IMG/VR virus record: IMGVR_UViG_3300028283_000002
Span: 1-64,000 of that record
Length of the DNA stretch: 64,000 nt
Reading direction: 5' to 3' (one strand)
Source: a virus
Shown: piece after piece, positions 34,531-60,280 of the stretch
How positions within the stretch are numbered: the first letter of the stretch is position 1
How the letters are laid out: every line of letters starts with the position of its first letter
Program-made: the position numbers and the translations under genes
Notes under the pieces: model-generated
The model's input: only the letters and a program-made list of their open reading frames with translations
Told to the model about the DNA's origin: nothing
Database searches by the model: none

Positions 34531-34851
34531 TTAAGGTTTTTCTTTAGTAGCACATGTGACTTTATACCAGTCACTAACCATGTTGGGTTTAAAACACATA
34601 AAACCGCCTTTTTCTTCTAGATCTTTAACTACACCCATTGATCTATTTATATCACATTTGGAATTTTTAAAATTACCCACGTTAACTGATGAATTACCAT
34701 TATATATAGCTCCAACTGGATTTTTCATATATACTGTATCACCTATTTCAAAATCACCTGTATTTGGTTCGAAATCAGCTCTCTCTGGTGGTAATAAAGC
34801 ACCACTCGTGTACCATCTAACAGCCTCAAATTGTTTGAATTTAGTCTCCAT
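34531..34851 (-). CDS. RWYxxG-module protein
   Basis: Product of 106 aa. FEAVRWYTSGALLPPERADF followed by GDFEIGDTVYMKNP is shared in outline with 36975-37334 (RVRWYSKGQFTDEE) and 37331-37690 (AIKWYEHGKLVPDE): (R/K)WYxxGxL...E, then a strand-rich part. Probably a small binding domain. It lies directly downstream of the amidoligase-like gene. Confidence 0.78.
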   Translation of the reverse strand: METKFKQFEAVRWYTSGALLPPERADFEPNTGDFEIGDTVYMKNPVGAIYNGNSSVNVGNFKNSKCDINRSMGVVKDLEEKGGFMCFKPNMVSDWYKVTCATKEKP

Positions 34852-36193
34852 CTGTTACTATATTCTTTATATCTTCTACGTATTTATAGAGTCTCTTTTG
34901 GTAATCTTTCTCTCTATATTCTTTATTCGTCATTAAATATACAACGTAACAGAAATATAAAATCTTATCTTTGAATAATTCTTTACCAACTTCGCCACCA
35001 ACATATCTAAATTCCACGTAACCAGGACTATGATCTAATTCTACTAATTTAATACCAAACTCTTTAATATAGAAATCTTTATTGGCTTTGATTAGGTATG
35101 GGTTTAAGAAATCTTCCACTTGTTCAATATTATGAATATCTAATTTTTCTATATTTTGTTTAATATAATCTTTGTGTGTGGCTAATCTGTCCTTGTGTCT
35201 GAAACCAAGGTTCCATAGTTTTTCTTTATTTCTTGTTTTATAATCTTGTTTAATTTCACCAGTGAGGTTTCTTCTTATACCGTCAAGTAAACTTTGTGTG
35301 AATCTATTATTTGCTCTCCACATTATATCACTAAATACAAATGGTGTTCTTTGATCTCTGTTCATATCACCCATTAATACCAACCCCTTCAAAGGATTCC
35401 ATTTGATTTTTTTATCGTTAACACCAATATTAACGTGTAAAGCTGTTCTTTTCTTATCCATTTTCCAGAAATCTTGTTGATCAAATTCTTCGTAAAAATC
35501 ATCGAGTTGTTCGAAACATTCATTCAAACTCTTAATGTAAGTTTTACTTGAAAATTCAAGAATTCTCTGTTTATCCATATCCCCCTCTAATTCGTATTTG
35601 AAAGTATCTCCGTACTTAGCGTAGAATTTTGGCATATGTTCTTTGAAATTATCAACGAGATAACCCATATTCTGTCCGTAGACAAACATAGTCAAGTTCT
35701 TTAACATCAATGTAGCGATGTAATCATCTACATCAGTTTCCCAAGCTCTATTAATCTTTCTATCTGTTCTATCCTCGTCATCTGGATCAACTTTGGATAA
35801 AAGGAAATCTATAAAAAAATTAACCCAAGTCCAAGTAACATATTGTTGATGAAGTTTTTGTAAAGCTTTCTTACCTAGTTTGGCTGTTTCGTTCTCAGCA
35901 AACATCTTTTTCTCGTTTTCTTCTAATCTCTTCTTTGGTAATTTATAACTATCATCAAATCTGTAACCTATCTTACCTCTAGACATATCTAAAAGAATCT
36001 GGTCCTTAACAAAACCAAATGTCCTATTAATCTCCTCTTCTGTTTCTAGATAAGGTTCGTCGTCGAGATCGAAGTCAGCAACTAGTTCGTACTCAATGGA
36101 TAACGTGAAATGATCAGACATTGATTGAACAAAGTCCTTATCTTTTCTATTGAATTCGTTTAAGAAATTGAAATAATTGTTAAGTAAGTCCAC
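34841..36193 (-). CDS. Amidoligase-like protein (glutamine synthetase fold carboxylate-amine ligase)
   Basis: Product of 450 aa from GTG 36193, chosen because a TTTATATATA box lies 23 nt upstream; a longer frame to 36325 overlaps the previous gene. LSIEYELV (E34, E36) matches the metal-binding ExE. ALHVNIGV (251-258) matches the G.HVH-type motif, and GYVEFRYVGG (391-400) the late E.R motif of amidoligases. These enzymes join carboxylates to amines on peptides or metabolites. A glutamine amidotransferase gene lies just upstream and could supply ammonia. Confidence 0.62.
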   Translation of the reverse strand: MDLLNNYFNFLNEFNRKDKDFVQSMSDHFTLSIEYELVADFDLDDEPYLETEEEINRTFGFVKDQILLDMSRGKIGYRFDDSYKLPKKRLEENEKKMFAENETAKLGKKALQKLHQQYVTWTWVNFFIDFLLSKVDPDDEDRTDRKINRAWETDVDDYIATLMLKNLTMFVYGQNMGYLVDNFKEHMPKFYAKYGDTFKYELEGDMDKQRILEFSSKTYIKSLNECFEQLDDFYEEFDQQDFWKMDKKRTALHVNIGVNDKKIKWNPLKGLVLMGDMNRDQRTPFVFSDIMWRANNRFTQSLLDGIRRNLTGEIKQDYKTRNKEKLWNLGFRHKDRLATHKDYIKQNIEKLDIHNIEQVEDFLNPYLIKANKDFYIKEFGIKLVELDHSPGYVEFRYVGGEVGKELFKDKILYFCYVVYLMTNKEYREKDYQKRLYKYVEDIKNIVTDGD

Positions 36194-36216
36194 TTTATAT
36201 AGAAGGTTTTTTCTTC

Positions 36217-36226
36217 TATATATAAA
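36217..36226 (-). promoter_or_regulatory. Putative phage promoter box (TTTATATATA)
   Basis: Variant box 23 nt before the GTG at 36193. It supports that start for the amidoligase-like gene. Confidence 0.4.
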
Positions 36227-36245
36227 AAAAGAAAATCTAATCTTT

Positions 36246-36449
36246 TTAATCGAAGATTCTATAAAGAATTTCATCAGGTTTTCTGTCCTTACAGGTATCG
36301 TCAAGACAGTACAATCCAGATCCACCGTTATCGTATTCTATATAAACATTATGAATACTAATAACATTTTTTATTTCGCCTGTATCGCCATCAGTATCTA
36401 CTATTCTGGTGCCAATTACGATGTCTTCGGGTTTAAGTAACTCTTTCAT
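36246..36449 (-). CDS. Small SH3-like hypothetical protein
   Basis: Product of 67 aa. EDIVIGTRIVDTDGDTGEIK then VYIEYDNGGSGLY is a short all-beta pattern like a KOW/SH3 barrel. It overlaps the amidotransferase gene by 4 nt. Confidence 0.76.
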   Translation of the reverse strand: MKELLKPEDIVIGTRIVDTDGDTGEIKNVISIHNVYIEYDNGGSGLYCLDDTCKDRKPDEILYRIFD

Positions 36450-36973
36450 AATTTTGCGATTTCTTTTAGGAAAAATTCTTTAATTTTTATTGAATTATCA
36501 GTCATCTCTGGGTGTCCTTGAAAAGCAAGAATGGGTTTAGATTTGTGTCGCATAAAGGTAAGAATATTATTCTTTACTTCACCGACAAAGTTTTCTGGGA
36601 TTTTATCAAAGTAATAAGAATGGTTATAAAACATATTATAATCACCATTAACAAAATGAAAGCCTTCGTTTAATTTTCTGTTGTAATTATTTGGAAATTT
36701 ATTGTATATTAAAGTTTCGTCATAAACAAGACAAAGAATTTGAAGACCTAAACAAACTCCAAGTATAGGTTTATTAGTAATTTTCAACCACTCTTTTTCT
36801 TCTTTTATGTTATCACCAGTAATATCAATTGGTCCACCTGAAAGAACGATATAGTCGTAAGTCTCACATCTCTCAGCGTTAAAATTAGCGTAGTTCATCA
36901 CGTCACAACCTTTAAAAAGTTGGATGAGTCTACCAATGTATTTCGTGTTGTGGTTTATAATAAGTCCTGCCAT
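36446..36973 (-). CDS. Class I glutamine amidotransferase
   Basis: Product of 175 aa. LSGGPID (oxyanion strand), LGVCLGLQIL with nucleophile C74 and FQGHPEMTDN with H154 and E156 complete the class I triad. It is a stand-alone glutaminase domain, related to GuaA/CarA/TrpG partners. It lies upstream of the amidoligase-like gene with one small gene between. I infer ammonia supply to that ligase. Confidence 0.85.
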   Translation of the reverse strand: MAGLIINHNTKYIGRLIQLFKGCDVMNYANFNAERCETYDYIVLSGGPIDITGDNIKEEKEWLKITNKPILGVCLGLQILCLVYDETLIYNKFPNNYNRKLNEGFHFVNGDYNMFYNHSYYFDKIPENFVGEVKNNILTFMRHKSKPILAFQGHPEMTDNSIKIKEFFLKEIAKL

Positions 36974-36974
36974 A

Positions 36975-37334
36975 TTAAAAATAAATTATTTCTTCTGGAA
37001 AATATTGAATCAATGTTGAGTACAAATAAGCTCTACATTGTCCTTCGCCTTTATTATTAGTCAAATATATTGTTCCATTTTTTACCAAATCAAATTCTTC
37101 TTGTGAGAACTCAATATCATTACTTGATTTATGTGCTACAAAAGTACCTTTAAATGGATCATCTAATAATGTCGAATCATCTTTATTGATTACCCAGTAC
37201 CTATGTCCTTTATACGAATACATATCTGTATAAGCGTACTTCACTATTTTCAAATAAGGATCAATTTTCATTTCTTCATCTGTAAATTGACCTTTTGAGT
37301 ACCATCTAACTCTCGTTGAAGCCGCCTGTTTCAC
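36975..37334 (-). CDS. RWYxxG-module protein
   Basis: Product of 119 aa. RVRWYSKGQFTDEEMKIDPY at the start, then GHRYWVINKDDSTLLDDPFK. Tandem paralog of the gene 37331-37690, which it overlaps by 4 nt. Function unknown. Confidence 0.8.
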   Translation of the reverse strand: MKQAASTRVRWYSKGQFTDEEMKIDPYLKIVKYAYTDMYSYKGHRYWVINKDDSTLLDDPFKGTFVAHKSSNDIEFSQEEFDLVKNGTIYLTNNKGEGQCRAYLYSTLIQYFPEEIIYF

Positions 37335-37690
37335 TGGTAGAATTCTATTTTATCTTCTTCTAAAAACTTTTTTAAATCTGAATACTTCCATTTATATTCA
37401 TTATGATGGCAAGTTATCCAAACGTTATTCAATTTTATATTGATAATATCTTTATGTGTTAAAGGTTCAAATCTTTTCAGATATACATTATATCCAAATG
37501 TAATAGGATCAGTTTTACTTAAAGAATTAACTATATCAATAGTTTCACCGTTTATAACACCTATAAAAAATCTATGCCTTTCAAAAGAACGAGGATCAAA
37601 ACTTCTGACTTTTACGATAGTGAATACACCAATAGCATCAGAATTTTCATCTGGAACTAATTTACCGTGTTCATACCATTTTATTGCCAT
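37331..37690 (-). CDS. RWYxxG-module protein
   Basis: Product of 119 aa. MAIKWYEHGKLVPDENSDAI, then ERHRFFIGVINGETIDIVNS, aligning with the paralog 36975-37334 over the full length (KxVxxxDxxSxxxHRxxxxVINxx). Equal length supports tandem duplication. Confidence 0.8.
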   Translation of the reverse strand: MAIKWYEHGKLVPDENSDAIGVFTIVKVRSFDPRSFERHRFFIGVINGETIDIVNSLSKTDPITFGYNVYLKRFEPLTHKDIINIKLNNVWITCHHNEYKWKYSDLKKFLEEDKIEFYQ

Positions 37691-37899: not shown

Positions 37900-38574
37900 T
37901 TAAACATTTTTTATTAAAATAGTTTTTATAATATCAGACACATCTTCAGCAGCGTCCGCACACTTTTCGAGAGTTTGGAATATGTCTTTATTCTTTATAA
38001 TCTCGAGAAAATTTTCATCAGCCTTGTTCTCAAATAAAGCACTCATATAAGCGTAAAATATTCTATCTGCTTCGTTCTCAAGTGAATTGAGATTGATACA
38101 AGATTGTAAAATAAGTTCCTTATTTTTACCAGCGTCTCTTAAATGAAATACAGCAACTTCAACTTCTTCTGCCATTTTACCGATAACAGTAACAAAGTTT
38201 TTGAATTCTTCACTTATCTTTTTTGGTTTTGGTTTGTACCATTGAATACGTTGACTAACAGCGTAAATGTAATCAAGTACGTCGTCCAAGTGTGAAGCTA
38301 AAGCGTGAACGTCCTCTCTATCGAAAGGAGTTAAGAATGATACATTAAGTTGTTCATATACTTTATGTGTATAGTTGTCAGCTTCACTTTCGAGTTCTTT
38401 TATCTTATTAAAAATGGCTTCTCTTTCCTGATCTGTTTTTTGGTAGATTAGATCGTTTAAAAGCTTTGACGCTTCTAAAGTGCATCTGGCTTGGTTTTCG
38501 AATAGAGGAAAGAAAGATTCGTCTTTTGGCACGAAGAATTTCAGTCCTGCGTTTATTTTATCAATTATACTCAT
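37900..38574 (-). CDS. PhoU-like DUF47 phosphate transport accessory protein
   Basis: Product of 224 aa, all helical. FFPLFENQARCTLEASKLLN, ELESEADNYTHKVYEQLN then FLTPFDREDVHALASHLDDV are the conserved segments of the DUF47/Pit accessory family, with metal-binding E..  D and DREDV motifs. In bacteria these genes sit next to PiT transporters, as here (34 nt downstream of pit). It probably regulates that transporter in the infected cell. Confidence 0.9.
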   Translation of the reverse strand: MSIIDKINAGLKFFVPKDESFFPLFENQARCTLEASKLLNDLIYQKTDQEREAIFNKIKELESEADNYTHKVYEQLNVSFLTPFDREDVHALASHLDDVLDYIYAVSQRIQWYKPKPKKISEEFKNFVTVIGKMAEEVEVAVFHLRDAGKNKELILQSCINLNSLENEADRIFYAYMSALFENKADENFLEIIKNKDIFQTLEKCADAAEDVSDIIKTILIKNV

Positions 38575-38607
38575 ATATTTTTTTATTTTTTTAATTCTTT
38601 GTTGTTT

Positions 38608-39594
38608 TTACAATATTGCGTTTAATCCTAAATAAATTAACATTCCTAATATAGCTGATATGGGTATGGTTAAAATCCAAGCCCACATAATCTTTGCTGT
38701 AACAGTCCATTTTACAGACTGTAAACCCTTTCTCAACCCAGTTCCCATAATAGCTCCAGTAATTGTGTGAGTTGTGCTCACAGGAATACCTAATTCGGTT
38801 GCTCCAAACAATGTTAAAGCACCAGCGGTTTCTGCACATACTCCCTCAAAGGGTTTAAGTTTAGCAATTTTCTGTCCCATTGTTTTAATAATTCTCCAAC
38901 CACCCATTATAGTGCCTAAAGAAATCGCAGCGTAACAAGAAAAAACTATCCACATAGCAATTGGATCAGCTTTAGTTGCGTGACCAGTAACAATCAAAGC
39001 TACCCATATAATACCCATAGACTTCTGAGCGTCATTACCACCGTGGCCCAAACTAAATAAAGAAGCTGAAGCCAATTGTAATCTTCTAAACCATTTATCA
39101 GCTTTAGTATGTGGTACATTTTTAAAAGCGTTTAATACCGCAACTGAAATAATATAAGATAATATCATACCTACAATTGGTGATATAAAAATGAAAGCCA
39201 CAATCTTTAAAAATCCACTTAACACAATAGCACCAAACCCCGCTTTAATTATAGTCGCACCAACTAATCCACCAACAAGAGTGTGAGAAGAACTAGATGG
39301 TAATCCAAGCCACCAAGTAACTAAATTCCAAATGATTGCTGCACCTAAAGCCGCAGCTATTACAGTCAAATTTATAACTTCTGCGTGTACAACACCTTTA
39401 CCCATTGTTGTAGCAACATGTAAACTGAAAATCCACACAGCAGCGAAGTTGAAAACAGCTGCCATCATAACAGCTTTAAATGGTGATAACACTTTTGTGG
39501 ACACCACTGTTGCTATAGAGTTCGCTGAGTCGTGAAAACCGTTAATGAAATCAAAAATCAGAACTAAAGCAATAACAATATAAAGAAATTCCAT
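38608..39594 (-). CDS. pit: PiT-family inorganic phosphate transporter
   Basis: Product of 328 aa with about nine to ten membrane segments. The duplicated PiT signature appears as FINGFHDSANSIATVVSTKV near 14-33 and as LGHGGNDAQKSMGI in the second half. PSSSSHTLVG and VSTTHTITGAIMG are the paired loop motifs. It uses H+ or Na+ symport at the inner membrane. A phage copy could raise phosphate uptake for DNA synthesis. It lies directly upstream of the DUF47 gene. Confidence 0.93.
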   Translation of the reverse strand: MEFLYIVIALVLIFDFINGFHDSANSIATVVSTKVLSPFKAVMMAAVFNFAAVWIFSLHVATTMGKGVVHAEVINLTVIAAALGAAIIWNLVTWWLGLPSSSSHTLVGGLVGATIIKAGFGAIVLSGFLKIVAFIFISPIVGMILSYIISVAVLNAFKNVPHTKADKWFRRLQLASASLFSLGHGGNDAQKSMGIIWVALIVTGHATKADPIAMWIVFSCYAAISLGTIMGGWRIIKTMGQKIAKLKPFEGVCAETAGALTLFGATELGIPVSTTHTITGAIMGTGLRKGLQSVKWTVTAKIMWAWILTIPISAILGMLIYLGLNAIL

Positions 39595-51172: not shown

Positions 51173-52366
51173 ATGGGTTCTACAAAATACTTATATCAAT
51201 TTATACCAGATAAGTTTGAATATCTCACTAAAACCAAAGTAATTGAATTCAAGGAAGTTAATCTCAAAACAGCTTACCTTATTAATATAATTCACGAACT
51301 CATTCTTAAATTTTATTTTTCTAATAGAAACTATATTGATCTTGAACCAAATGAAGATATAAAATTTAATCTTTGGAGCTCTATCTTACGTAAGAAGTAC
51401 GGAATGCACTACAATATTTACATGGAATATCTTGTAAATATTGGTTTTATATCTATGACTTCTGATTATTACGTTGGTAAGAAAGCCAAGACATATAAGA
51501 TAAACCCATTTGAGATAAATACTATAAAGAAAGTAAAAACTAACGACACCATACTAGCCAAGAAAAGCACTAAAGAATATTTAATGCAATCAATTACAAG
51601 CTATTGTAACAGCCCAATTAATCCAAAGATAAGAAAGAAACTCGTTGACGACCTTTATCACGTTCAAATAGATTACGAAAAATCTATTAATCTACTCAAC
51701 GACTTAAAGAAGAACGGTAAAATAGAAATTAATAAATTTTATAAAAATCTTCATAGTGTTGAAAGTATTAAATCCAATAACCTATTTTTCAAATTTGACG
51801 AGTACGGTAGATTCCATACGAACTTCACAATTCTTAAAAGAGAAATAAGACAAAATTTCTTAAAGATTGATAACGAAGAAATTGTAGAGATTGATATTGG
51901 CAACTCACAACCTTTATTCTTAGCCTTATTATTACAAGAAGAAATGCAACCAGATGATCCAGAAATCAATAATTACATATGGTTGGCAAGACAAGGATTA
52001 TTTTACGAACACATATTAAATAATTTCACCAACTTAACTAGGAGTGATGTTAAACTATTAACCTACAAAGTATTATTTGGTCATAACGGTATAAACTCAA
52101 CAGAAAATAAAATATTTCAAAGTTTATTTCCAAAAATATATGACTATATAATTGAATATAAGAAGGTTAATGATAATTATAAATCAATGGCGCATATACT
52201 TCAAAAGATGGAGAGTGATTTCATATTTGGTAAAGTTGTAACTGAGATATATGATAAGATACCAGGTATAAGGTTATTCACTGTACATGACTCAATTTTA
52301 TTTCCTATTAAATACGAGAAGCAGGTGAGAGAAATATTTGAAAGAAATAAGAAGGAAATATTTTAA
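51173..52366 (+). CDS. Palm-only family A polymerase-like protein
   Basis: Product of 397 aa. IVEIDIGNSQPLFLALLL (238-254) fits motif A, with D241. TRSDVKLLTYKVLFGHNG (289-306) fits motif B (R...K......G), and LFTVHDSILF (369-378) fits motif C (HD). These appear in PolA order in the second half. No 3'-5' or 5'-3' exonuclease domain is visible. The N-terminal 200 residues may bind DNA or act as a primase-like part. I recall similar proteins in Bacteroidota mobile elements. DNA or RNA polymerase activity is inferred. Confidence 0.62.
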   Translation: MGSTKYLYQFIPDKFEYLTKTKVIEFKEVNLKTAYLINIIHELILKFYFSNRNYIDLEPNEDIKFNLWSSILRKKYGMHYNIYMEYLVNIGFISMTSDYYVGKKAKTYKINPFEINTIKKVKTNDTILAKKSTKEYLMQSITSYCNSPINPKIRKKLVDDLYHVQIDYEKSINLLNDLKKNGKIEINKFYKNLHSVESIKSNNLFFKFDEYGRFHTNFTILKREIRQNFLKIDNEEIVEIDIGNSQPLFLALLLQEEMQPDDPEINNYIWLARQGLFYEHILNNFTNLTRSDVKLLTYKVLFGHNGINSTENKIFQSLFPKIYDYIIEYKKVNDNYKSMAHILQKMESDFIFGKVVTEIYDKIPGIRLFTVHDSILFPIKYEKQVREIFERNKKEIF

Positions 52367-53007
52367 TCATCATCCCATTCTTCTTCACCGTATGGATCGA
52401 AAGGATTTATTCCTCCAATGATCTTTATTGGTTTTCTATGATCTATGTAGAAAGATTTACCGTCTTCTGTATAAATTTTTAACAGATCTCCTTGATGAAT
52501 AGCATCCAGTGAAATTGTAATTTTTACTGGAACACATTTAGCTATTTTTTTAATATTTGGATTAGAAGCATTAAAATTCGATAAAGCATCAGCGTTTTTA
52601 CTTCCTGTAAAAGTAATTTCTTTTCCAAAATATTTCTCAAATTCTTTCATAAACGTATCTATGAAAAAGAATCTACCTGTTGGTGATATATCAAAATATA
52701 CACTATGTCTTCTATCACTTGATCTAACTAAATAAGGTGTACAGTATTGACTTTCACTGGCTCTGTGATATATTACGTCTTCAACATTCATTATAGCGTT
52801 ATGAGAAGTACTCATATTACATTTAAAAGTTTCAGACATGAAGTTATTTGTGTGGAAAGACACTATTCTACCAACAAGATGGTCTCTGAAAATTTCAGCC
52901 ATTTTTTCACCAGCTTCAGTATCAATTCTTCTAATATCATCAGAGAAACTAATAACTTTATCAGTTTTCATAGCCTCATTTAAAAAATTATTGAATTTAG
53001 TTCTCAT
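52363..53007 (-). CDS. Leader- and DPYGEE-tagged hypothetical protein
   Basis: Product of 214 aa from MRTKFNNFLNEAMKTDKVIS, whose ATG overlaps the stop of the upstream tagged gene. C terminus NPFDPYGEEEWDDD. The body has a beta-rich domain with VSFHTNNFMSETFKCNM and a later KVPVKITISL-type strand. It is convergent with the polymerase-like gene. Confidence 0.85.
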   Translation of the reverse strand: MRTKFNNFLNEAMKTDKVISFSDDIRRIDTEAGEKMAEIFRDHLVGRIVSFHTNNFMSETFKCNMSTSHNAIMNVEDVIYHRASESQYCTPYLVRSSDRRHSVYFDISPTGRFFFIDTFMKEFEKYFGKEITFTGSKNADALSNFNASNPNIKKIAKCVPVKITISLDAIHQGDLLKIYTEDGKSFYIDHRKPIKIIGGINPFDPYGEEEWDDD

Positions 53008-53351
53008 TTTTCCCAAACTTCTTCACCGTAAGGATCTAACTCAGAGTGAGGATTAATTTTTCTTTTCTTTTTAATTTCAATAGCCTCTTTGTACGTCTTT
53101 GGACATTCACCTCCAACCATATCAAACTCTTTTTCTGTTAATACTATCGCTTTATAAGTATATCCTAAAGCAAATATAGCGTCTTTGGCTGATAGATTAT
53201 GGTTTTGACGTTTTAATTTACCGTCAACATACATACCAATCCAATCACCGTCTGTACTTTCTACAAATCTTATAACTGGATCTGGTCTTTCATAAGAAGA
53301 TTCATCACTTAGATTTACACCTATTGCTTCATTAAATTTTTTAATTTTCAT
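53004..53351 (-). CDS. Leader- and DPYGEE-tagged hypothetical protein
   Basis: Product of 115 aa. N terminus MKIKKFNEAIGVNLSDE, C terminus ELDPYGEEVWEK. The body includes YKAIVLTEKEFDMVGGECPK. A near-consensus TAATATATA box lies 5 nt before the ATG. Function unknown. Confidence 0.85.
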   Translation of the reverse strand: MKIKKFNEAIGVNLSDESSYERPDPVIRFVESTDGDWIGMYVDGKLKRQNHNLSAKDAIFALGYTYKAIVLTEKEFDMVGGECPKTYKEAIEIKKKRKINPHSELDPYGEEVWEK

Positions 53352-54516: not shown

Positions 54517-55938
54517 ATGGAAAATATGTTAAAATATCAAGAATTTATAAATGAGTCTAAGATAGACTCCACTTACGCTGATAACGAGAATAAGCATAGA
54601 TTATTATTTTCTGAAACTATAAGTAAAGATTTTTCTGAAAGGAGAAACGAATTTCCTCTATTTTATCAATTCTATTTAGATTCTGACGTATTTTACGGTC
54701 TTAGATTTATTACAGATAATGATGATATAGATAGAATTGTAGATGATTACGAAAATATTAGATTCACTCTACTTCTATCTAGATCTTATAGAGATACAGA
54801 AGACGAACTCCCTGGTGATCATAAACACCTTTTAACATACGAAGGCGGTAGATTTAATCTTTCACAAATTATAGAAAATAAAGAAAATTATTATTTTTAT
54901 AAAATAGTTGAAGGGCCTAGAAATAATAATATACCGAATTGGGATGAAGCTGTTGATTTTGAACAAATTAACGAAAAGAGATGGATATTTGTTATAAGAA
55001 AAGAATCGACTTGTTCTTTGGTTAAAACTGAATCAAGAGAGAGTAGTGGCACTTGGGCTGAAAGACATTTATCTAAATTGTATGGTTGGAAAGAAGATCC
55101 AAAAAAAATAAAATTAAATTTCACTTATAACGGTGCTGCTATTACAAGGGCTAATGGTTTAATAAATACAGTTTTTAATTCGACTGATGCTGATATATTT
55201 GAAATAGAAGATAATCCAGAAACTTGTTTCAAATACGATCTAGTTATGCCGGATGGTAAAAAAATAGAAGTGAAAAAATATAATATAAAAGAAATTTGGA
55301 AAAATAACGCACCTGTTCCTATCTTACTAGCTCAACAAATTAGAATGGCTAGTAGAGAAACACTTGTTAAAATTGTGAGAATGTACAGAGATTTATTAGA
55401 AGAAGACACACCCGAATATGACGCAGTAAATGATTTAGTAGAAATGCAACCAAGAGAACTTCAAGATTATTTCGATGTTAGAAAACAACCAGGCGGAAGA
55501 TTAAATCCAATATGTACAACTATAAAAGCCTATTATAATTCAAGAATAAGAAGACTTGTGGAAAAATTTAACGCGATGAACCAAAATCTTTGGATGCAAG
55601 GCATTTACGGTATTTATTTTTGCGATGAAGATAGAACTACTAGAAAAAGAGATTTCCTTGTTAAAGTTGGTGAAAACGGTGTTAGGAATTTCAATTATTT
55701 CTGGAGAGAATTTAATAGTTGGTTGGGGTTCAACGAATTAAAATTATTTATGACTGTAAAAGGTGAAGCGTGGGAATACATCTTATCTGAATGGGACACT
55801 TTTGTTAGGACTTTTCAAGTAGAGAATCACGAAGAATATCTTGCTGATATTGAAAATGGTGAAATAGATATAGATGATAAGACGTATAAATATAACGATA
55901 TGGATCACTATTGGGTAGAAGAGCCAAAAGAAGATTAA
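54517..55938 (+). CDS. Leader-bearing hypothetical protein
   Basis: Product of 473 aa. N terminus MENMLKYQEFINESKIDSTY contains YQEFINE, very close to YQEFIAE of T4 internal proteins. The middle (about 160-250) resembles a restriction-like strand pattern with YDLVMPDGKKIEVKKYN (D...ExK), so a nuclease is possible. The C terminus MDHYWVEEPKED is acidic, with a Trp like the tag. If packaged, it would be injected cargo. Confidence 0.82.
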   Translation: MENMLKYQEFINESKIDSTYADNENKHRLLFSETISKDFSERRNEFPLFYQFYLDSDVFYGLRFITDNDDIDRIVDDYENIRFTLLLSRSYRDTEDELPGDHKHLLTYEGGRFNLSQIIENKENYYFYKIVEGPRNNNIPNWDEAVDFEQINEKRWIFVIRKESTCSLVKTESRESSGTWAERHLSKLYGWKEDPKKIKLNFTYNGAAITRANGLINTVFNSTDADIFEIEDNPETCFKYDLVMPDGKKIEVKKYNIKEIWKNNAPVPILLAQQIRMASRETLVKIVRMYRDLLEEDTPEYDAVNDLVEMQPRELQDYFDVRKQPGGRLNPICTTIKAYYNSRIRRLVEKFNAMNQNLWMQGIYGIYFCDEDRTTRKRDFLVKVGENGVRNFNYFWREFNSWLGFNELKLFMTVKGEAWEYILSEWDTFVRTFQVENHEEYLADIENGEIDIDDKTYKYNDMDHYWVEEPKED

Positions 55939-57102
55939 TTACAAATACATATCATTACTTACCTGGTTAACATTACTTGTATTTCTTACTTGAAAATTAG
56001 TATTTGCTGATATAAAACCAGAACCAACTGGGCTTCTTATTGGTTTATAAGGAGATATAATATCAGAATTCTTTATAGTGGCATCAGGAGCACCTCTAGC
56101 CACACTTCCCTCAACGTCAAAACTAACTAGATAAGTATTATTAGGATAAACTTTTAATATTTTAACAGGAGCTGGTTCACCTGTTAGATTGTGGGTGATC
56201 ATAACATAATCGTCTTTAATTGGATCAAATCTTTTTTCGTAGAGTTGATAACTCATAACGTGATTAAACCCTTCATTTCTTGCGTTTTCCATAGCTCTTA
56301 TCCTTCCTTTTATTGTCTCTATTTCGTTCGAGAGAGTTTCGTAATCTTTTGTACCTTTTTTGGTTCTTGCCAGTGTAGCCTCGTAACCTTCGAGTGTTTG
56401 TCTTAGTAGAGCAAGTCTTCTTAATCTATTTTGAATTGGATCTTTTTCTGCTTGTTGATTGGGTCTCGCTGCTCTCCTAGCTCTTGGTGGTGCTTGATAA
56501 TTGTAATCTTTATCTTTTGAAGAAGACTGTTTTTTCTCTGGTCTTGTTTTAGCTTTACCACTTTGGATGAATGGATAAACTGTATCTAAAATAAATATTT
56601 TAAAATCTGCGTAATTTAATCCAGATACCTTGTAATCGTAATCTTTTTCACCATATTTTATATTAACATGAAAAACAGGCATACGGATAGTATTATCGAA
56701 AGTGACCACAAAATCTAAATTCACGTGACTTATATGTAAATTATCACATTCTATTTTTATATAATTACGATTAGGAATAGATAGATAACAGTCTCTATAA
56801 TTCCTATATATGAATTGAACAACAGCGTTCCAAGTATCTTGAAATTCTTGTTTTTGTCTTTCTTCTTCTTGTTTTTGTCTTTCTTCTCTTTCTTCGGTCT
56901 CTCTTCTCTGTCTTTCAGCTCTTTCTTCTCTTTCTCTTTTTTCTTTTTCTGCTTTTTCTTTAGCCATTTTTTCTTTAGTTCTCAAAGAAGGTTCACCCTT
57001 GATATCTTTACCAGTGGCAACTTCGTAATCTAAAAAATTTCTCATCCATTTTGGACTTCTATAAATCGCTTCATTCGCCTTCTGGTTTCTCATTCTTACC
57101 AC
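55939..57102 (-). CDS. Coiled-coil protein
   Basis: Product of 387 aa. N terminus MVRMRNQKANEAIYRSPKWM is followed by a long Lys/Glu/Arg-rich coiled coil (about 45-95). A globular domain follows, then a Pro/Arg-rich linker near 210, a second coiled coil (about 225-275) and a C-terminal SH3-like part with DDYVMITHNLTGEPAPVKIL. A head-internal or virion structural role is plausible. Confidence 0.82.
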   Translation of the reverse strand: MVRMRNQKANEAIYRSPKWMRNFLDYEVATGKDIKGEPSLRTKEKMAKEKAEKEKREREERAERQRRETEEREERQKQEEERQKQEFQDTWNAVVQFIYRNYRDCYLSIPNRNYIKIECDNLHISHVNLDFVVTFDNTIRMPVFHVNIKYGEKDYDYKVSGLNYADFKIFILDTVYPFIQSGKAKTRPEKKQSSSKDKDYNYQAPPRARRAARPNQQAEKDPIQNRLRRLALLRQTLEGYEATLARTKKGTKDYETLSNEIETIKGRIRAMENARNEGFNHVMSYQLYEKRFDPIKDDYVMITHNLTGEPAPVKILKVYPNNTYLVSFDVEGSVARGAPDATIKNSDIISPYKPIRSPVGSGFISANTNFQVRNTSNVNQVSNDMYL

Positions 57103-57460
57103 TAATTATTTTTATGCCATATTTATCTGCCCAATCATATATCTTATCTAAATATGGTAATATATTCTTCTCATTCTTTTCCTTTACCAACTTAACCAAA
57201 TCATTCCAACACTCTTTACCTATACCAACTAAATTATCTTTCTTACCAAGTAAAGCGTCTTTATATTTTTTAATGAACTCATTTACGTTCTTATCCTGCG
57301 AATATTTATTCCAAATATCAGTAACATCATACTCTAGTTCCCAATTAACTTCTTGAACGTCAAAATCATCCATAGAGTCTTCAATGGTAAGAGTAGATTG
57401 TTCGTTAACAAAGTCTTTGTAACTAGTTTTTATCATGTGTCTATAATTCTTTTTAGTCAT
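57071..57460 (-). CDS. Leader-bearing hypothetical protein
   Basis: Product of 129 aa from ATG 57460, overlapping the stop of the upstream gene. The leader MIKTSYKDFVNEQSTL begins at Met9, which may be the true start. The rest is acidic and helical with DVTDIWNKYSQDKNVNEFIK. It overlaps the next gene by 32 nt. Confidence 0.8.
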   Translation of the reverse strand: MTKKNYRHMIKTSYKDFVNEQSTLTIEDSMDDFDVQEVNWELEYDVTDIWNKYSQDKNVNEFIKKYKDALLGKKDNLVGIGKECWNDLVKLVKEKNEKNILPYLDKIYDWADKYGIKIISGKNEKPEGE

Positions 57461-59410: not shown

Positions 59411-60280
59411 TTATTCCCATACATATAATCCATTTCCCCAATTCCTGGAATTTAATCCACACTTTCTACAAATCCAACCTCCACCATGTTCTCTTTCCAC
59501 CTTTGATTTTTTGTTACATTTAGGACAAGTATATATTTGAGTATCATCGTTATAAAAATCACTCAAAGGTAAAACCCCAGCGTCTAAAGGATTATTATAG
59601 TCTTCTAAAGGTCCATCAAAACCAAACACCTCATGGTCTGTGTCGTCAAATTCTTCTCCAAAAGAACAAACGTGCTTATCTCCTAAAATTTTCCCAATAA
59701 ATTTATTTTGACCGTACCTGTTATTATTAGCACGCCACTCAGCTAACAATTCATCACCTCTAGCCATTTGTTGGTGATATAGTTCTATCTCTCTATCCCA
59801 TCTACCTGGTTGCCTTGCTAACTCTCTATCATCCCAAATCTCTTCCCCGTATGGATCTAGTTCTCCCCTTGGATCACCAGCTTTATATTTAGTATTTTCA
59901 TCAACCTCCCACAACTCTTCACCGTAAGGATCTAGATATGGGTCAAAAATTTGTTTAATAGAGGACATCACTTCTATTTTATCGTTAAATGAAATGGAAG
60001 TGAAATTTTGATCTTGTGGGTTCTTTGTAGAAAATAATTTAAAATAATCTCTATTTGGCCAAACAACTACTCTCATTGGTACGATGTTTGTATTCTTAAC
60101 TCTTCCTCTAAAATCTTTTTGTACTATATTTAATCTTCTACCTAATAACATTTTTTTAAATTGAGGTATAGCTCTCTTTCTATCGTTGGCGCATTGTAAC
60201 AACACTTCATTGAAAGAAAAAACGTCCCCAATTTTAACTGTAACAGCTTCATTTATATATGTAGAAAAATTAGTTATCAT
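59411..60280 (-). CDS. Leader protein with two DPYGEE tags and a C-terminal zinc ribbon
   Basis: Product of 289 aa. Leader MITNFSTYINEAVTVKIGDV is followed by a beta domain to about 110. Two tags come next, LDPYGEELWEVD and GELDPYGEEIWDD, about 34 residues apart in the middle of the protein. The C-terminal part ends with TCPKCNKKSK ... GWICRKCGLN, a four-Cys zinc ribbon. It looks like a tagged protein fused to a further domain, or tandem tag duplication. Overlaps 60277 by 4 nt. Confidence 0.86.
   Translation of the reverse strand: MITNFSTYINEAVTVKIGDVFSFNEVLLQCANDRKRAIPQFKKMLLGRRLNIVQKDFRGRVKNTNIVPMRVVVWPNRDYFKLFSTKNPQDQNFTSISFNDKIEVMSSIKQIFDPYLDPYGEELWEVDENTKYKAGDPRGELDPYGEEIWDDRELARQPGRWDREIELYHQQMARGDELLAEWRANNNRYGQNKFIGKILGDKHVCSFGEEFDDTDHEVFGFDGPLEDYNNPLDAGVLPLSDFYNDDTQIYTCPKCNKKSKVEREHGGGWICRKCGLNSRNWGNGLYVWE

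Follow-up and report, generated by a model that had tools for sequence, protein, structure and literature searches.

Amidoligases of the PF12224 family have been described in phages of the LUZ24/tf type, where the gene lies in a cluster with a PF14395 COOH-NH2 ligase, a class II glutamine amidotransferase (GATase), an ATP-grasp protein and GGCT (PMC3890496). Cell-wall modification and superinfection exclusion were proposed by Iyer et al. (2009), in the form in which PMC10580990 gives that proposal. A PF12224 protein, gp196, is also encoded near the portal gene of the Agrobacterium jumbo phage Atu_ph07, for which the account in PMC6102473 gives 131 virion proteins. The internal protein IPIII of T4 begins with a 10-residue capsid-targeting sequence (CTS), in which residues 4 and 7 target the protein and residues 8 and 10 direct cutting; gp21 cleaves after L/I-X-E, and the enzyme Alt is ejected (PMC9026906). 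The head of the giant phage SPN3US holds a large mass of ejected proteins, according to the account in PMC7411985.

The window analyzed here is a stretch of 64,000 bases and belongs to a virus record of 152,665 bases (G000) that is itself a fragment. The list of open reading frames with their translations showed a tightly packed run of genes on the minus strand, encoding, along the direction of transcription, a 68-aa protein, two proteins of the RWYxxG type, a class I GATase, a 67-aa protein, a 450-aa amidoligase-like protein and a third RWYxxG protein (Table 1). The locus resembles the LUZ24/tf cluster in that a phage amidoligase lies near a GATase, but the GATase is of class II there and of class I here. 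Moreover, the ten window neighbors scanned gave no match to the LUZ24-type partners (ATP-grasp, PF14395 and GGCT), and only the class I GATase was found among them. Atu_ph07 gp196 is like the window family in fold class and motif order, with ~23% identity over the aligned core, whereas it is without the strict T4-type tag that the window amidoligase has at its N terminus. With the T4 internal proteins and Alt, the window amidoligase shares an N-terminal tag of the form aromatic-xx-aromatic-[IL]-x-E (PMC9026906), and a gp21-type protease and T4-type head genes are found in relatives of the window phage. The known enzyme cargo of T4 is an ADP-ribosyltransferase, while the cargo predicted here is an amidoligase. 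Huge phages also have a second family of amidoligases (L026, L027 and L028; 422 IMG/VR loci), which has a domain homologous to the window family but a different N terminus, with the strict tag in none of the three amidoligases named, and which is further distinguished by C-terminal pentapeptide repeats and tail-side gene neighbors.

Table 1. Features of the amidoligase locus (window coordinates).
Feature	Coordinates	Strand	Basis
450-aa GS-fold amidoligase (PF12224-related)	34841..36193	-	AF2/Foldseek, gp196 profile match, dN/dS 0.019
Class I glutamine amidotransferase, stand-alone, C74/H154/E156	36446..36973	-	PF00117 3.2e-20, dN/dS 0.020
67-aa protein between GATase and amidoligase	36246..36449	-	No family match
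106-aa protein, tag-like METKFKQFEA then VRWYTSG	34531..34851	-	No convincing family match
119-aa RWYxxG protein	36975..37334	-	ORF and motif
119-aa KWYxxG protein	37331..37690	-	ORF and motif
Capsid-targeting-like tag, residues 1-13, MDLLNNYFNFLNE from GTG start	36155..36193	-	[FYW]xx[FYW][ILMV]xE match
Motif 1, E34-x-E36	36086..36094	-	At least 90% conserved, 22 relatives
Motif 2, GDMDKQRILEFSSKTY, RxxE213...T218	35537..35584	-	E213 invariant, 22 relatives
Motif 3, T250xxH253xN255IG257	35423..35446	-	T, H, N and G invariant, 22 relatives
Motif 4, YVEFRYVGG, residues 392-400	34994..35020	-	Y392, E394, F395, R396 and G399 invariant

The 450-aa protein is almost certainly an amidoligase homologue. 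An earlier note, made from the sequence, had recognized three amidoligase-like elements in it, and four motifs are present and in order; the order ExE / vE / HxNxG / EFR is that of the LUZ24 and tf amidoligases. To compare the family, a 22-row alignment (A5) was used, with relatives from IMG/VR and from huge-phage records. Across the 22 relatives there are 14 invariant columns, among them E213, T250, H253, N255, G257, Y392, E394-R396 and G399, and the ExE pair, whose loss among homologues would have spoken against the assignment, is conserved in at least 90% of them. An AF2 model built from A5 (pLDDT 79, pTM 0.79) was searched with Foldseek against BFVD, a collection of predicted viral proteins, where the best matches (3.7e-11 for the first, ranging to 2.6e-7, probability 1.00) are, for the most part among those that carry a name, phage 'Amidoligase enzyme' entries, so that the predicted fold agrees with the earlier assignment. 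The same model gave no significant fold match in the PDB (best E 0.013). That best match, to HMG-CoA reductases, was taken as chance (TM 0.14), and glutamine synthetase was returned at E 0.33 and TM 0.2. Because the search of solved structures gave nothing significant, the call of a glutamine synthetase (GS) fold rests on the family link.

This link runs through intermediates. Scans of the window protein against Pfam (including PF12224), PHROGs and NCBIfam gave no convincing match, and no family member tested reached the curated PF12224 cut-off of 22 bits, the best E-value in the family being 0.0028 (2 of 22 members) and L137 scoring 16.5 bits. L137 did match PHROG 7469 'amidoligase enzyme' at 1.7e-4. 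Profile A5, by comparison, matched Atu_ph07 gp196 (AUZ94978) at 98.4% and 7.7e-15, and the second huge-phage family at 98.3% and 2.2e-14. Since both of these reach PF12224 (gp196 with 30.2 bits and one member of the second family with 26.8 bits), homology is well supported, and the PF12224 relationship suggested by the earlier note holds through gp196 but not in a direct profile search. An hhalign comparison of the family with two-sequence LUZ24 profiles was not significant, and bacterial genome contigs, searched by pattern, yielded no relative.

The closest relative of the record is LR756501, of 735,411 bases, with 97.7% identity across the amidoligase. The amidoligase reading frame opens at 36325, and translation likely starts at the GTG at 36193, as this is the first usable start codon in the 98%-identical relative L002. 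Compared with L002, the amidoligase and the GATase have the lowest dN/dS ratios among nine neighborhood genes tested, the others ranging from 0.046 to 0.124; constraint of this strength indicates that both are real genes. The 67-aa protein has a homologue only in L002 among the loci compared. Judged by its motifs and by purifying selection, the amidoligase homologue is probably an active ligase. Its carrier is best explained as a huge, Mahaphage-like phage of the T4 type; the Mahaphages are a clade with Bacteroidetes as predicted hosts (PMC7162821).

The core of the N-terminal tag, YFNFLNE, spans residues 7-13, with a predicted cut after E13, and residues 1-12 have pLDDT <50 in the AF2 model. 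The strict tag is present in roughly half of the full-length members of the family, including those of the window and L002, with variants such as YSNFLNE in L002, YTNYINE in L025, YYQFINE in L038 and YIHFINE in L043. The other half or so has a short or divergent tag only, for example MKHLVKFSLFEE, MLILEF or FSLFEE. Of the 220 ORFs of G000, 12 carry an N-terminal strict tag, against a mean of 1.0 and a maximum of 6 in 1000 shuffles and 1.4 cases expected from the interior density, an enrichment that is somewhat optimistic because the strict pattern was set after sequences had been seen. A looser first pattern, later replaced by the T4-based one, had been less enriched, with 21 cases for a shuffle mean of 6.9 and a maximum of 18. 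In addition, 18 ORFs have an [ILMVF]NE that ends at residues 9-22, with 5.8 expected. The tagged proteins of G000, at least 12 by the strict pattern, include those at window positions 52363-53016, 54517-55938, 57071-57460 and 59411-60280; those scanned showed no known function except for a zinc-ribbon-like end in the last of these.

The genomic position of the amidoligase was compared across relatives. At 12 loci, a set that includes near-duplicates, no more than about 6 kb separates it from the large terminase gene (TerL), and a ClpS-like protein and other shared neighbors accompany it. A T4-type capsid protein gp23 (PF07068) and a head maturation protease (PHROG 207, 6e-28) are encoded in the relatives W01-W03, and a T4-type portal gp20 (PF07230) was confirmed in W02. 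The gp21-type head protease was detected in 15 of 18 records tested and was not found in the 152-kb G000 fragment. In the relatives, the N-terminal part of the capsid protein, before the capsid domain, reads HQINE|NAY or HQMNE|NVG, where the bar marks the putative cut site. Given the T4-type tag, the head genes and protease, and this match to the capsid site, what the earlier note had called a Glu-rich tag is probably a packaging signal rather than a substrate. As separate observations, the ClpS-like adaptor beside TerL lies at 14113-14394 in L003 (PF02617) and at 13587-13868 in L004, and the 735-kb phage W01 encodes a second gp21-like head protease, a small one of 178 aa (L129 1429-1965).

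Taken jointly, an amidoligase that is packaged into the phage head is a reasonably likely reading. The enzyme would enter the prohead core by means of its N-terminal tag, which would be cut after E13, and it would then be ejected into the host along with the DNA. Once in the cell, it would activate a carboxylate with ATP and couple it with an amine of a target from host or phage. For ejection itself, which is suggested by analogy to T4 Alt and the internal proteins, our judgment leans slightly in favor; the route has precedent in that SPN3US ejects head proteins and T4 ejects Alt. We know of no amidoligase-type carboxylate chemistry among ejected phage proteins. More tentative is the wider proposal that huge phages have a conserved class of head-packaged amidoligases, which may be delivered into the host along with the DNA and there covalently alter carboxylates of host proteins or of precursors of the cell wall. 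The kind of amidoligase is already known, and what is likely new is its setting as head cargo.

The enzyme could instead act within the prohead, where it would link proteins of the capsid, core or scaffold through isopeptide or amide bonds at maturation, and would then not be an effector in the host. The tag, the position near TerL in the 12 loci and the co-occurrence with the head protease would all be expected of such an enzyme. W01, however, has two amidoligase copies, the window amidoligase corresponding to the diverged second copy away from TerL, and an enzyme dedicated to assembly would not usually have an additional, diverged copy apart from the head genes. Furthermore, T4 heads, to our knowledge, mature without any amidoligase-like enzyme. 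We consider a prohead role unlikely and, because of the second copy in W01, prefer action in the host cell, a preference that does not settle the matter.

The GATase was described in the earlier note as a complete class I enzyme that, together with the amidoligase, might form a peptide-modification locus. Completeness was borne out, with a PF00117 score of 73 bits (cut-off 22.8) and a catalytic triad that can be read from the sequence as C74 in GVCLGLQ and H154/E156 in GHPE. In a two-part modification enzyme, the GATase would free ammonia from glutamine and the amidoligase would use it to amidate a peptide or metabolite. The arrangement of the two genes fits this, as they lie near each other on the same strand, with a single 67-aa gene between them and a stop/start overlap; both also have lower dN/dS ratios than any other gene tested, and PF12224 proteins are paired with a GATase in LUZ24 and tf, although one of a different class from that in the window. 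The pairing itself did not survive comparison with relatives. The GATase lies beside the amidoligase only in the window record and in the 98%-identical 735-kb phage, and it is missing next to the amidoligase in the relatives L003 and L004. PF00117 is absent from the two complete amidoligase-bearing genomes of 642 and 635 kb, and it was found in none of 23 amidoligase-bearing IMG/VR records, including ones of 476, 211, 195 and 173 kb, most of which are fragments, so that absence is not proof for each record. L031, which is the nearest of the independent relatives (branch support 100/99), has no GATase in its 24-kb contig either. These results indicate that the pair is seen in one lineage only. 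A supply of ammonia to the amidoligase by the neighboring GATase, in this one lineage, is accordingly improbable, and a two-part modification enzyme is unlikely as well.

The three RWYxxG-module proteins flanking these genes do exist as described, but their proposed role as substrates or adaptors was rejected because the motif is scattered, occurring in positionally unrelated proteins and once as a C-terminal tail with no amidoligase anywhere near. The longer form RWYxxGKL recurs in otherwise different proteins (G000 72291-72821, 73619-74176 and 99602-99970; L025 2250-2450), in which it is internal or near the C terminus; three of these four are tagged.

Rather than directing packaging, the tag might be some other shared N terminus, for instance a translation-linked one, or, as the earlier note had speculated, the actual substrate of the amidoligase. 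Many tagged proteins are indeed encoded outside recognized head gene blocks. Nevertheless, the tag matches the residues that matter in the T4 CTS, it ends in [ILM]NE like the capsid propeptide region, and the amidoligase bears it too, which makes such an explanation quite unlikely. Finally, that the amidoligase-like protein is structural, having kept the fold and lost catalysis, is very improbable. In its favor, no activity is known for any member, and in the second family a pentapeptide-repeat domain is present and the gene neighbors are on the tail side; against it, the active-site-type motifs are the most conserved positions.

With the tag read as a probable packaging signal, the idea of a peptide-modification locus becomes a testable claim, namely that a short tag marks which of the many uncharacterized proteins of huge phages travel in the head, and that the proteins so marked include one enzyme that forms amide bonds and is conserved close to the terminase. 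Should this be true, sequence alone would suffice to draw up a list of candidate injected proteins for the largest phages, and one could then look for their targets. Further observations concern other genes in these stretches. DHH-family-like proteins with the strict tag are encoded in L027 (3809-6085) and L028 (4635-6626), and glutamine synthetase genes (PF00120, PF03951) share a stretch with the amidoligase in two huge phages, at L003 296-1393 and L004 3543-4619. In the window, genes for a PhoU-like protein and a PHO4/Pit-type phosphate transporter adjoin each other at 37900-39594.
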